A program made the position numbers and the translations under genes. Positions 1,624-5,855 of a stretch of DNA of 23,899 nucleotides are shown one piece after another. The notes under the pieces were generated by a model. The model was not told where the DNA came from and made no database searches. It saw only the letters and a program-made list of their open reading frames with translations. Source of the stretch: a virus; IMG/VR virus record IMGVR_UViG_3300043313_000399, positions 1 through 23,899 of that record. One strand, given 5' to 3'. How positions within the stretch are numbered: position 1 is the first letter of the stretch; each line of letters begins with the position of its first letter.

Positions 1624-2048
1624 GCTTCTCATTGTGGAACGACACACCGGGCCTGACGCAGCGCCTCCAGCAGTTGCTGGAGGCGCCGGAGAACTATCCG
1701 TTCAGCACGATCGCCCCGATGCTGTCGAAAGAGTTCAACATCCGCCTCACCAAGAACGCCTGTATCGGGAAAAGCAGGAGGCTCAAGATGCCGCCACGGG
1801 AAGCACGACCGCCCAAGATCCGGCAATACGTCTACAAGCCGCGGGTCAAGACCAAGCCGCGCGAGCCGGAGCATGCCGGCCTGATTACGATCTACCAGCT
1901 GCGCGACTTTGTCGACTGCAAGTGGCCGATCGGCGAGTTGCCGGACCTCCTGTACTGCGGCCAGCCACAGGAGGAGGGCCAGGTCTACTGCACCAAGCAT
2001 TGTGATCTCGCCTATCATCCGGGGCGGAAGCACTTACAGCCTGCCTAG
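1620..2048 (+). CDS. gcrA: GcrA-family cell cycle regulator homologue
   Basis: In Caulobacter and relatives, GcrA binds RNA polymerase sigma70 holoenzyme and activates promoters carrying methylated GANTC sites (made by CcrM). This 142-aa protein keeps the family layout. Residues about 10-56 form a helical DNA-binding domain ending in TKNACIGKSRRLKM, which matches the family's TRNAVIGKxHRLGL. A basic linker rich in Pro, Lys and Arg spans 57-85. The C-terminal domain (99-134) has DCKWPIG, LYCGQ and VYCTKHCDLAYHP, with Cys100, 113, 124, 128 and His127, 133. It is slightly shorter than typical cellular GcrA, with a longer insertion before the DNA-recognition segment. It overlaps the upstream gene by 4 bp. 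The final codons merge into the pentamer array. Phage GcrA could retarget host transcription or time phage genes to the cell cycle. Confidence 0.85.
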   Translation: MSFSLWNDTPGLTQRLQQLLEAPENYPFSTIAPMLSKEFNIRLTKNACIGKSRRLKMPPREARPPKIRQYVYKPRVKTKPREPEHAGLITIYQLRDFVDCKWPIGELPDLLYCGQPQEEGQVYCTKHCDLAYHPGRKHLQPA

Positions 2049-2761
2049 CCATTCCCGTCCCTGCCATGCCTCGCCCTACCCGGCCACGCCCCGCCGCGCC
2101 AGTCCGTGCCTCGCCTGCCGCGCCAGGCCCAACCGCGCCTCGTCACGCCTCCCCGCGCCTCGCCTGCCAGGCCGTACCGCGCCAAACCAAATCCAGCCTC
2201 GCGCCGCCTGCCCCGCCAGACCGCGCCTCACCCGGCCGCGCCGAACCCGGCCATGCCTGCCATGCCGCGCCAAGCCCGACCCCACCGGGCCGAACCCGGC
2301 CTCACCCGACCATGCCTGCCTTGCCCGGCCAGGCCGCGCCGCGCGCCGCCACACCTAACCACTCCTTGCCTGCCACGCCGTGCCAGACCACGCCTCGCCA
2401 ATCCAGTCAACGCCAAGCCGGTCCCCGCCTGCCGTGCCCCGCCTGTCCTGACCAGTCCGCGCCAGTCTGAGCCATTCCACGCCACGCCTGCCTCGCCACG
2501 CCCGACCCTGCCGGGCCTATCCCTGTGCCGCCAAGCCTGCCGCGCCCAGCCGGACCTCACCGCGCCAAACCGTGCATGTCCATGCCCCGCCTGCCATTCC
2601 AAGCCAGTCCTCCTCATGCCCGGCCTCACCTTGTCTGCCTTACCCCGCCCAGCCTAGCCCCGCCCGACCTCTCCAAGCCACACCTAGCCCAACCTCGCCT
2701 GCCGTGCCGGACCACGTCAGCCCATGACCGGCCCAGCCCGACCTCGCCTTGCCTGCCGTGC
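2049..2761 (-). repeat. Pentamer array 1: about 140 degenerate GG[C/T]NN units, non-coding
   Basis: For some 700 bp, CC dinucleotides (GG on the minus strand) recur every 5 bases. Examples are CC at 2050, 2055, 2060, 2065 and so on to 2115, and again 2221 to 2280. An occasional 4- or 6-base step shifts the register. The two or three intervening bases vary freely, so hardly any long exact repeat exists. The 12-mer GCCTGCCGTGCC nevertheless appears at 2427, 2697 and 2751. The periodicity begins inside the last codons of the GcrA gene (about 2041) and ends exactly at the stop codon of the leftward gene 2762-3262. On the minus strand the array is therefore the 3' untranslated extension of that operon. 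Frames across it stay open on both strands only because the composition lacks stops. I treat it as non-coding. GG every 5 bases fits two-tetrad G-quadruplex potential. Confidence 0.85.
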
Positions 2762-3262
2762 CTACTCTTCGTCCTCGTCATCCCCGCCGACGTCAGCGAG
2801 AAGATCAGCCACACGCTCGAAGTGAGCCTTGTCGGCTCCAACGTGCAACAGACAACTACCATATCGTTTTAGCCAGGACTGCATCGCAGTCGACGCCTCG
2901 CCGCACAGGTAGGCGACGTGTTCTGGATTGCTCGGGTCCATCACGATATAGCCGCCGCCGTCATTTCGGCCGTCCATCGGAGAGACGATCATAGGCGCTT
3001 GCGTCTCGATTACGCGAATAGTCCCGCCTCGACCAACATGCTCGACTTTGAATTTGACGACCAGGTCGCGGGCGAAAATTCTCGCCTGCCATAATCGATA
3101 TTCGTGAGCGGCGGCGTCATCACTCCAGTTAAACCACGCGAAAGCCGGATGAGCCTCGCCTCTGCGTTTGACCTCAGCCAGAAACGCGGCGGGGTCGTAA
3201 GCCCCGCCGTGTCGCTTGGCAAAGTCGGCGATGATTTGTTGTCGCAGACCTTTGTCGAACAT
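2762..3262 (-). CDS. Conserved-looking phage protein of unknown function (166 aa)
   Basis: Second gene of a leftward pair. Its ATG overlaps the upstream stop by one base (TAATG), so the two are translationally coupled. The N-terminal half contains FAKRHGGAYDPAAFLAEVKRRGEAHPAFAWFNWSDDAAAHEYRLWQARIFARDLVVKF, a helical, aromatic-rich segment resembling a class of uncharacterised proteins from alphaproteobacterial phages. The middle is beta-rich, and the C-terminus is acidic (VGGDDEDEE). No catalytic motif or membrane segment. The stop codon is immediately followed, in the sense direction, by pentamer array 1. Family memory is approximate and function unknown. Confidence 0.8.
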   Translation of the reverse strand: MFDKGLRQQIIADFAKRHGGAYDPAAFLAEVKRRGEAHPAFAWFNWSDDAAAHEYRLWQARIFARDLVVKFKVEHVGRGGTIRVIETQAPMIVSPMDGRNDGGGYIVMDPSNPEHVAYLCGEASTAMQSWLKRYGSCLLHVGADKAHFERVADLLADVGGDDEDEE

Positions 3263-4017
3263 TATGCAGCCCTCCGCCGCACTTCACCGTGGAAAAATGC
3301 CATCAGGTCTTCAGTGTCGCGATCGGCATAGACCGGCTGCTTCAGCGCGGCGAGTTGTACCTTGCGACCGTGCTTGGCCACCAGTTCATCCCACGCCTTG
3401 TCTTCCTCGCCCTCACCGAGCACTCTGAAACTTCCAAATGACCCTTTCCCTTTCTCTTGTCGGAAATCTCCCACGCCGATCAGCACACCGGCATTGCACA
3501 GCAGGTTGACAACCGAGGATGCCGACAACTGCGGGATGATGTAGCGTATCTCAAGTTCAGCGCCCCAGATCGGCAGGTAGCAGCGCGTCCTGACGTCTGG
3601 CGTTCGATTGATGTCGGCGGATCTTACGACATCCATCCGCAGCTGCGGCGTGCCGTAGAGTGGCACGAACGAACCCGGCATAAACAGCAGACGTTGCGCC
3701 GAGGTCTTGGTCAGGCCGGGGGTTTCCAGGGCCGCGGTGGACATCGCCGCCTTTACAGCAATCACGTTCAACCCCAGCGCCGTGGGGCCATCAGAGAGAA
3801 TTTCGGCGCTGTCGCGAAATTCCTGCTCCGGCGAGTGCTTGATGTTGGCACGGTCGGCCTTGCCTTTTTTTTGGCCGCCGACCAGCAACTGCTGCTTGGC
3901 TTTTGATGCCATCCGGTTCTGGAACAGCGGCGTAGTTCCGATAATGCGCAACTTAATGCTGGCCTGCCGCAGCGGCTGAATGCTGATCTCGATCTGGTCG
4001 TCTTTCTTGCTAGCCAT
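3262..4017 (-). CDS. Unknown phage protein with RAMP-like glycine-rich loop (251 aa)
   Basis: Lead gene of the leftward pair. ATG at 4017-4015 with AGGAG 6 nt upstream, both lying within a 10-bp inverted repeat. Residues about 20-42 are IKLRIIGTTPLFQNRMASKAKQQ, a beta strand followed by the TPLFQNRM motif. Near residues 178-200 the sequence reads GVLIGVGDFRQEKGKGSFGSFRVL. The pattern GxGxxRxxKGxGxFG resembles the glycine-rich loop that closes ferredoxin-like folds in RAMP/Cas7-type RNA-binding proteins. That likeness is a motif-level impression, not a family assignment. The protein has no membrane segment. With gene 2762-3262 it forms an operon facing away from the replication genes, and its messenger would carry the pentamer array at its 3' end. 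Confidence 0.8.
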   Translation of the reverse strand: MASKKDDQIEISIQPLRQASIKLRIIGTTPLFQNRMASKAKQQLLVGGQKKGKADRANIKHSPEQEFRDSAEILSDGPTALGLNVIAVKAAMSTAALETPGLTKTSAQRLLFMPGSFVPLYGTPQLRMDVVRSADINRTPDVRTRCYLPIWGAELEIRYIIPQLSASSVVNLLCNAGVLIGVGDFRQEKGKGSFGSFRVLGEGEEDKAWDELVAKHGRKVQLAALKQPVYADRDTEDLMAFFHGEVRRRAA

Positions 4018-4593: not shown

Positions 4594-5075
4594 TTGGAGA
4601 AACTTACGGTCGATACATAGTCATTGATAAGGCGCCGCCATCAAAATACATCAAGTATCTATGCCGGTGTTCTTGCGGGACGGAGAAGATCGTTACCAAA
4701 GACAATCTTCAGCGCGGGCACAGCAAAAGTTGTGGCTGTCTGCGCAATGAACTCAACCGCGTTCGTCACATAACCCATGGGATGCGCCGTAAGCCTGTTT
4801 ATAAATCATGGGGTGGCATGATCCAGCGATGCACTAACCCCAAAAACCCGGACTGGGATTATTATGGAGGTCGCGGCGTTTCTGTCTGTGATCGATGGCT
4901 CACTTTTGAAAACTTCCTTGCTGACATGGGCGAGCCTGCCAATGGGCTGACCATTGATAGAATTAATCCTTATGGAAACTACGAACCGGAGAATTGCAGA
5001 TGGGCTACGCGCAGGCAACAACGGGTAAATCAGCGGAAAAATTTGGATACGAAAGGCACTCCCCTTCGTCCTTAA
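4590..5075 (+). CDS. HNH homing-type endonuclease with N-terminal zinc ribbon
   Basis: 161 aa from GTG 4590, which overlaps the upstream stop (GTGA) and has GGGGAG 7 nt upstream. An ATG at 4575 is an alternative. The N-terminus GETYGRYIVID leads into a Cys4 zinc ribbon (Cys25/27/29 and Cys48/50: LCRCSCG...SCGC). A linker HGMRRKPVYKSWGGMIQRC follows, with the YYGGRGVSVCDRW...F..FLADMG block, and then the nuclease core LTIDRINPYGNYEPENCRWAT (residues 120-140). This is a widespread phage intron-less homing endonuclease architecture. Local sequence is visibly richer in A and T than the flanking genes, suggesting recent transfer. Its last 76 bases overlap the beginning of the exonuclease frame, so it appears to have landed at that gene's 5' end. 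Confidence 0.85.
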   Translation: MIGETYGRYIVIDKAPPSKYIKYLCRCSCGTEKIVTKDNLQRGHSKSCGCLRNELNRVRHITHGMRRKPVYKSWGGMIQRCTNPKNPDWDYYGGRGVSVCDRWLTFENFLADMGEPANGLTIDRINPYGNYEPENCRWATRRQQRVNQRKNLDTKGTPLRP

Positions 5076-5767
5076 ATTTATTCGCAGCCTCACCTTCGAT
5101 GTGGGTTTTGGAGAAAGTCCTCGGCCTCAAGCAGCCGGTCGGCGCCGTGGCGCACCGCGGCGTGGCGGTCGAGGACGGCGTCGCCCACGGCCTCGGCAAC
5201 CCGGATGCCGACGACAAGGACAGCATTAAGATTGCGCTGGCCAAATACGACCTGCTGACCGCGATGTCGGGCGACCACCGCCGCGAAAAGTATCGCGACG
5301 ACATCCCCGACATGGTGAGCCAGGCGCTCGACGAGCTGCGGCCCTACGGCATCCCTACCGACACGCAAGGGTTCATCACCTGGCATCCCGAGGGATTGCG
5401 ACTGCCGATCGTCGGTTACTTTGATTTCAAATGGGAAAACCAGGGCATCATCGTTGATTTGAAAACGACTGACCGTATGCCGAACGAGATCAAAGCAGGT
5501 CACGCGAGACAAGTGAGTTTGTATTCCGGGGATAACCACGAGGGCCGGTTGACTTATTGCACTCCGCGAAAATGCCACACGCTGCAGCTGGAGAACATCC
5601 GCGAGCATCGACAAGCACTGCATAACATCGCGAAGAAGGTTGAAAACTTTCTGGCGCTGAGTGAAGATCCGGCGTTCTTCACAACTGTCGTTGCGCCTGA
5701 TTTGGATAGTTTTTATTGGGGTAACCCAGTTGCACGTCAACTTGCGTTCGAGCATTTCGGCGTGTGA
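5000..5767 (+). CDS. RecB/Cas4-like PD-(D/E)XK exonuclease
   Basis: 255 aa from ATG 5000. A TTG at 4994 is less likely. The fold-specific residues are visible: HSPSSLNLF near 20-28, the HRGVAVEDG helix (His52, Glu58), VGYFDFKW with Asp142, and IVDLKTTDRMP with Asp153-x-Lys155. QVSLYS then gives the conserved Gln after the catalytic centre. Phage proteins of this type are 5'-3' or processive exonucleases that make single-stranded tails for annealing. The first ~20 residues are read from the same DNA as the HNH C-terminus in another frame and look unconserved, so the ancestral start may have been displaced by that insertion. The SSB-like protein downstream fits the role. Pentamer array 2 starts 6 bp after its stop. 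Confidence 0.85.
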   Translation: MGYAQATTGKSAEKFGYERHSPSSLNLFAASPSMWVLEKVLGLKQPVGAVAHRGVAVEDGVAHGLGNPDADDKDSIKIALAKYDLLTAMSGDHRREKYRDDIPDMVSQALDELRPYGIPTDTQGFITWHPEGLRLPIVGYFDFKWENQGIIVDLKTTDRMPNEIKAGHARQVSLYSGDNHEGRLTYCTPRKCHTLQLENIREHRQALHNIAKKVENFLALSEDPAFFTTVVAPDLDSFYWGNPVARQLAFEHFGV

Positions 5768-5773
5768 GACTTT

Positions 5774-5855
5774 GGCACGGCAGGCCCGGTCACGCTAGGC
5801 AAGGTGAGGTTCGGCAGGGTTCGGCGGGGCGCGGCGTGGTATGGCCCGGCAGGCG
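5774..5855 (+). repeat. Pentamer array 2: about 16 GG[C/T]NN units
   Basis: GG recurs at strict 5-base spacing from 5783 through 5849 (one unit reads CG at 5793), with a 4-base step at each end. The start GGCACGGCAGGC (5774-5785) is identical, on the sense strand, to the start of array 1 read from its own upstream gene. The G-rich strand is again the sense strand of the gene that has just ended. Between the arrays only the phase and GG[C/T] are kept while the other bases vary. No reading frame of interest is present. Confidence 0.8.

Follow-up and report, generated by a model that had tools for sequence, protein, structure and literature searches.

The tract of regularly spaced GG dinucleotides on the minus strand at positions 2040 to 2762 of the window (the whole 23,899-nucleotide stretch of viral DNA analysed, IMG/VR record IMGVR_UViG_3300043313_000399) is very probably the guide-RNA array of a VIPR (Viral Interference Programmable Repeat) system. 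The VIPR kind itself has been known since April 2026. As described in the preprint (PMC13142463, bioRxiv 2026.04.26.720920), it consists of a RAMP protein, with an RRM core and a glycine-rich loop, and of vrRNAs of 9-16 YNNGG repeats that are aimed at competing phages; their NN bases recognize DNA while skipping one base, in most cases that at the wobble position. According to the text, Vipr binds RNA, and the system recognizes DNA, represses transcription, and affects phage growth; seven types are distinguished. The system was described in Escherichia phage SUSP1 and in a P. fulva prophage (PMC13142463; PDB 36pp). A conserved, structured 3' vrRNA tail is reported there for one (SUSP1) clade, with other array forms elsewhere and a mention of staggered arrays (fig. 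S18). A literature search for the names of the system returned PMC13142463 only. An earlier, sequence-only reading of this DNA had stated that such arrays have no described function in phages, which was true until April 2026 and is superseded by the preprint. The features of the window discussed below are as follows.

2040..2762, minus strand: vrRNA array of 13 guide blocks with 8-14 GGYNN units each, a GGCA tetramer closing each block
2321..2370, minus strand: guide 8 of the array (AA GT TA GT GG GC GC CT CG AA), predicted target the primase-like gene of the related phage L315 (19/20)
2762..3262, minus strand: vap-like accessory gene (166 aa, phrog_15946), following vipr, with the array starting at its stop codon
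3262..4017, minus strand: vipr gene, predicted to encode a Cas7-like RAMP protein (251 aa, phrog_4652) from a profile match to SUSP1 Vipr and the predicted fold
4994..5767, plus strand: PD-(D/E)XK nuclease gene, own copy 18/26 to the solitary guide, homologues in related phages the predicted target
5774..5853, plus strand: solitary vrRNA consisting of a single guide of 13 units with GGCA on either side, starting immediately past the nuclease stop codon

Read on the plus strand, the array is a chain of CC dinucleotides, mainly in 5-base steps. The G-rich minus strand is the sense strand; there, the repeating unit reads GGYNN and the 4-base unit GGCA (TGCC on the plus strand), and the 5' end at 2762 immediately follows the vap-like gene's stop codon. 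At the other end, the array overlaps by 9 bases with a convergent GcrA-like cell-cycle regulator gene (Pfam PF07750, 1620-2048). Between 2049 and 2761, a second CC follows exactly 5 bases on at 117 of 179 CC dinucleotides, compared to a mean of 44 and a maximum of 60 in 1000 dinucleotide-preserving shuffles; the corresponding fraction is 0.65 in the array and 0.08-0.11 in the window's three longest genes. When up to one mismatch was allowed, a CCN3 pattern of 9 units was matched 49 times, versus 0 in 100 whole-window shuffles. The spacing of five bases reported by the sequence-only reading is therefore real. However, the strict phase that it claimed over ∼140 units is present within blocks only. 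Over its full length, the array shows a random mod-5 phase (resultant 0.079, p ∼0.32), whereas the mean resultant in 50-base windows is 0.69. The steps between CC anchors are five bases (110 times), four (13), ten (11, which are single damaged units), and nine (once), and the phase falls by one base at each 4-base unit, approximately every 60 bases or ∼11 units, so that GGCA resets it. The two NN positions have near-maximal entropies of 1.99 and 1.93 bits, and the third base is mainly C. The second, small array at 5774-5853 on the opposite strand was absent from the earlier account.

The tetramers are a regular punctuation. Of 125 tetramers, 118 are GGCA, and in 20 arrays the mean GGCA spacing is 11.5 units with a coefficient of variation of 0.37; random placement gave 0.85, and none of 2000 random trials reached a value this low. 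GGCA also lies at or near both ends in most arrays. Based on this regular spacing and the position at the array ends, each GGCA-bounded block was read as one guide. A profile of 117 junctions revealed that GGC follows GGCA in 88% of them and that the preceding dinucleotide is biased, with A/G and then T/C. The spacing of ∼11 units agrees with the 9-16 repeats given in PMC13142463, as do the counts in the window, with 8-14 GGYNN units per main-array block and 13 in the solitary guide. Within the continuous main array, no separate structured tail was found between guides besides GGCAGGC. Among mycobacteriophages, gain or loss affects entire guides, block by block.

The gene at 3262-4017 encodes a protein that, by profile comparison and structure prediction, is a member of the SUSP1 Vipr family. 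A family profile including the window protein matched PDB 36pp (SUSP1 Vipr) with an E of 1e-35, the next match being CRISPR Csm5; the window protein alone gave an E of 0.077. All 27 family members match phrog_4652, and glycines G177, G181, and G195 are invariant in the family. The best solved matches to an AlphaFold model of the protein (pLDDT 89) are CRISPR RAMP/Cas7-like proteins (Csm3/Cas7), with Z up to 10.2. The vap-like protein matches no Pfam family, its model has no convincing fold match, and peptide patterns recovered no relatives; a profile search did. Among viral or phage-related loci with vipr, this accessory family is present at 26 of 29 with punctuated arrays versus 4 of 71 with unpunctuated arrays.

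Equivalent arrays are present in related and unrelated phages. A distant DNA search matched mycobacteriophages of the genus Cheoctovirus, which carry GCCNN arrays with the same TGCC units, and a DNA pattern scan alone placed the array pattern at at least 120 viral contig loci. Among the viral matches listed, 105 are degenerate arrays, with two near-maximal-entropy positions and a third that is mostly one base. A profile detected the RAMP (Vipr) family at 83 of these 105 loci, compared to 0 of the 117 ordinary pentamer-repeat loci from genomes; some of the 22 listed viral loci with no detected vipr are cut contigs. In bacterial genome contigs, 117 of 120 GCCNN loci are plain pentamer repeats, and these were rejected as the same element because both entropy and gene context differ. 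Around the degenerate arrays, again among the matches listed, the nearest upstream gene is co-directional with the G-rich strand in 108 cases versus 28, the array often starts no more than 20 bases from the stop codon of that gene, and when the flanking proteins were clustered, a single family, with 71 of the 275 proteins, predominated. Conversely, a search with the window Vipr matched 32 phage records, all of them Mycobacterium or Gordonia phages, and the array adjoins the vipr gene in all 14 distinct loci examined from these matches. Among portal-related contigs, vipr was found only in the window phage and in its sister phage L286. VIPR is thus a sporadic accessory system among portal-related phages, which suits a weapon against siblings that lack vipr.

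Several variants of the array were observed among these loci. At 7100-8326 of L114, short GCCNN arrays, at least nine in number, alternate with a conserved spacer of ∼30-40 bases. On the reverse complement stands TGATGACGAAAC, a sequence that resembles a hammerhead core; Rfam gave no match up to an E of 0.5. Ribozyme-interspersed arrays are mentioned in the text of PMC13142463. The third base on the G strand is A instead of Y (GGANN) in L129 (1183-1399), L132, and L093, and GGTNN predominates over GGCNN in L036, L040, L056, and L135. L112 (6042-6592) contains multi-unit internal duplications, e.g., GGCCCAGCCTTGCCACACCGGCCGTGCC twice, which are a possible trace of guide origin. Very long unpunctuated arrays, several per locus and often on both sides of vipr, occur in L028, L037, L039, L060, L062, and L115.

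L286 resembles the window phage in the location of its main array and of its lone guides. Its vipr and vap-like genes are 76% identical to those of the window in DNA, i.e., 24% different. Eight main-array guides are common to the two phages, and five in the window and three in L286 are unshared. In the shared guides, the differences amount to 3.6% at N1 and 7.1% at N2, 3.6% and 2.4% at the two G positions, and 17.9% of units at Y. It should be noted that the shared pairs were picked by NN similarity of >60%, which somewhat favors the NN value; the gap to the 24% of the genes is still large. The comparison shows NN bases that are under selection and as conserved as GG. The sequence-only reading was right that GG spacing is kept in a selected non-coding element, which is not a drifting simple repeat; its assumption that the other positions are free is contradicted by these figures, the NN bases being the ones that hold the guide sequence.

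The predicted targets support recognition of DNA by NN pairs with one base skipped. The 9-unit core of the solitary guide, at a skip of one base, matched two viral contigs only, in both cases within homologues of the adjoining nuclease gene. For scoring of the full guide, 80 portal-related loci were added. At a skip of 1, the matches were 24/26 in L287, 23 in L281, 22 in L282 and L301, and 21 in L315, compared to 18/26 in the own nuclease gene and 20 in L286. Skips of 0, 2, and 3 gave the null level only, and 0 of 700 order-shuffled guides reached 24. Guide 8 matched the L315 gene at 19/20 with a 1-nt skip, in sense, and 0 of 700 order shuffles equalled this score; by reading of its sequence, the product of that gene resembles a primase. 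A guide of the mycobacteriophage array in Quico matched Che8 gp14 in antisense at a skip of 1, wobble-aligned, at 18/18 without its last unit and 19/20 with it. The uncorrected chance of this match is ∼3e-4 by base counting, and such match figures need care, as the same guide also reaches 17/18 at a skip of 2 in Tweety. With up to three mismatches, the Quico guide had no match in eleven VIPR-carrying phage records, Quico included. Che8 gp14 is annotated as a hypothetical protein, and homologues at the same place are annotated as tape measure protein. In all three pairs, including that of the solitary guide with the nuclease gene, the base that is skipped lies at the codon wobble position, and neither guide 8 nor the Quico guide has an own-genome site at a comparable level.

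Convincing targets were found in the sequences searched for just 2 of 14 window guides. The guide 14 core had no match in viral contigs, the F1 guide core had two chance-like matches there, and guides 9 and 7 gave chance-like matches that did not extend. A guide-target scan of all collected loci led nowhere, as did a target scan of 200 genomes from one actinobacterial order. In 5067 units, NN frequencies lie closer to codon positions 1-2 (KL 0.06 bits) than to positions 2-3 or 3-1 (0.11-0.34), with independent base use fitting slightly better (0.05) than codon positions 1-2.

The lone guides that the window phage and L286 carry in one and the same place differ, and each is closer to the nuclease of relatives than to that of its own phage. 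The first lone guide of L286 scores 16/18 against the nuclease genes of the window, L301, and L282, compared to 14/18 against that of L286 itself; taken alone, this guide is not significant (30 of 700 shuffles). The comparisons show predicted guides matching rival alleles better than the own allele. Self-escape through the Ser AGT and Leu TTG codons of the own nuclease was considered and dropped because L287 also has Ser AGT, which limits the claim for the own copy to its lower overall match. Our tentative proposal, to which we give slightly less than an even chance, is that lone guides beside a gene attack the alleles of rivals while the own allele is mismatched, forming a linked allele-exclusion cassette within a GGCA-punctuated VIPR that has its own accessory family. 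If so, this would point to guide acquisition from, or against, a rival's homologous gene.

An alternative for the same guides is that they act on the phage's own genes, e.g., in antisense regulation of its own nuclease. The solitary guide does adjoin that gene and is complementary to its family, but five relatives match better than the own copy (21-24 versus 18/26), the L286 guide fits other alleles at up to 16/18 and its own at 14/18, and comparable own-genome sites are lacking for guide 8 and the Quico guide; we consider this alternative unlikely. A structural role, in which the array forms two-tetrad G-quadruplexes or phases GG by half a helical turn for a DNA-binding or packaging protein and the other bases are free, would fit the GG-N3 formula and a 5-base signal far above chance. 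However, the long-range phase is broken by GGCA units, NN is conserved like GG between sister phages, matches to rival genes occur in one register only, and the arrays go with one RAMP protein family. In addition, when five 60-base pieces were folded with quadruplexes enabled, ordinary helices resulted in four and a quadruplex in one. The structural role is thus very unlikely, and the quadruplex and half-turn functions that the sequence-only reading had offered are unneeded to account for arrays that accompany one RAMP family and whose NN match rivals' genes under a 1-nt skip only.

That the array is a decaying simple sequence repeat or a functionless mutational by-product might be argued from the plain repeats at most bacterial GCCNN loci and from the local duplications in some arrays (L112). 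This explanation does not account for high NN entropy beside a third base that is mostly C, nor for the regular punctuation, the block turnover of guides, and the target matches, and it is refuted by NN conservation that exceeds that of neighboring genes; we regard its probability as negligible. Equally hard to credit is a low-complexity protein-coding region. Open reading frames of 92-183 aa do cross the array, on both strands, and in one mycobacteriophage a gene is annotated over it, but the frame shifts with each unit, since neither 5 nor 4 is a multiple of 3, relatives do not share it, and the conservation of NN and GGY is not codon-like.

For the VIPR reading, the following mechanism is proposed. 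The minus strand would be transcribed together with the vipr and vap-like genes, and the transcript, presumably processed at GGCA, would be used as ∼13 guides corresponding to the GGCA-closed blocks of 8-14 GGYNN units. Judging from the preprint and the predicted fold, Vipr, as a single-domain Cas7-like RAMP, may coat the RNA, each subunit covering five bases, holding GGY, and exposing NN. The NN pairs would then read double-stranded DNA under the one-base-skip rule, consistent with the matches described above, with the skipped base on the wobble positions of rivals' genes. Since the skipped base falls on the codon wobble, synonymous third-base changes would give the target no escape. By analogy to PMC13142463, binding probably represses transcription of the rival gene, and the guides would be used against related phages.

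This work amounts to an independent finding of VIPR from raw sequence. Its sequence matches support the one-base-skip code computationally in groups of phages for which the main text of PMC13142463 names no targets, namely mycobacteriophages and the window phage, the nearest known relatives of which infect Rhizobium and Bradyrhizobium. It also yields named, testable guide-target pairs in phages used in the laboratory, e.g., the Quico guide and the Che8 tape-measure gene in M. smegmatis. As far as the text of PMC13142463 goes, the GGCA punctuation, its link to this accessory family, the conservation of NN between sister phages, and lone guides beside a targeted gene family with a mismatched own allele are new. 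Selection on NN, block turnover, and the preference for rival alleles bear on the origin of guide RNAs before CRISPR-like memory.

Compared to VIPR in SUSP1 and the P. fulva prophage, as the preprint describes them, the window has a RAMP of the same family, adjoining GGY/NN repeats, and a small accessory gene; by sequence matching alone, it also has the 1-nt-skip code, targets in competing phages, and the skip at the wobble base. It differs from the described ∼100-nt vrRNAs with a structured tail in that 13 guides lie in one tract with GGCA as sole punctuation, possibly in its accessory family, which is unmatched to the vap1-6 of the preprint, and from VIPR as described there in its lone guide beside the gene family that it targets. 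Bacterial pentanucleotide simple repeats share the five-base period; unlike these, which consist of one or a few unit types, the window array has near-maximally diverse NN that are conserved between sister phages. No CRISPR repeats appeared in the tandem-repeat listing of the window, and none of the window proteins compared to PHROGs and Pfam corresponded to cas1/cas2 or other cas genes. With the RAMPs of Class 1 CRISPR systems (Csm3, Cas7), Vipr shares the predicted fold, a glycine-rich loop, and probably a repeating RNA register, whereas the Class 1 period of 6 bases is replaced in the window by a period of 5, with two bases read per unit.
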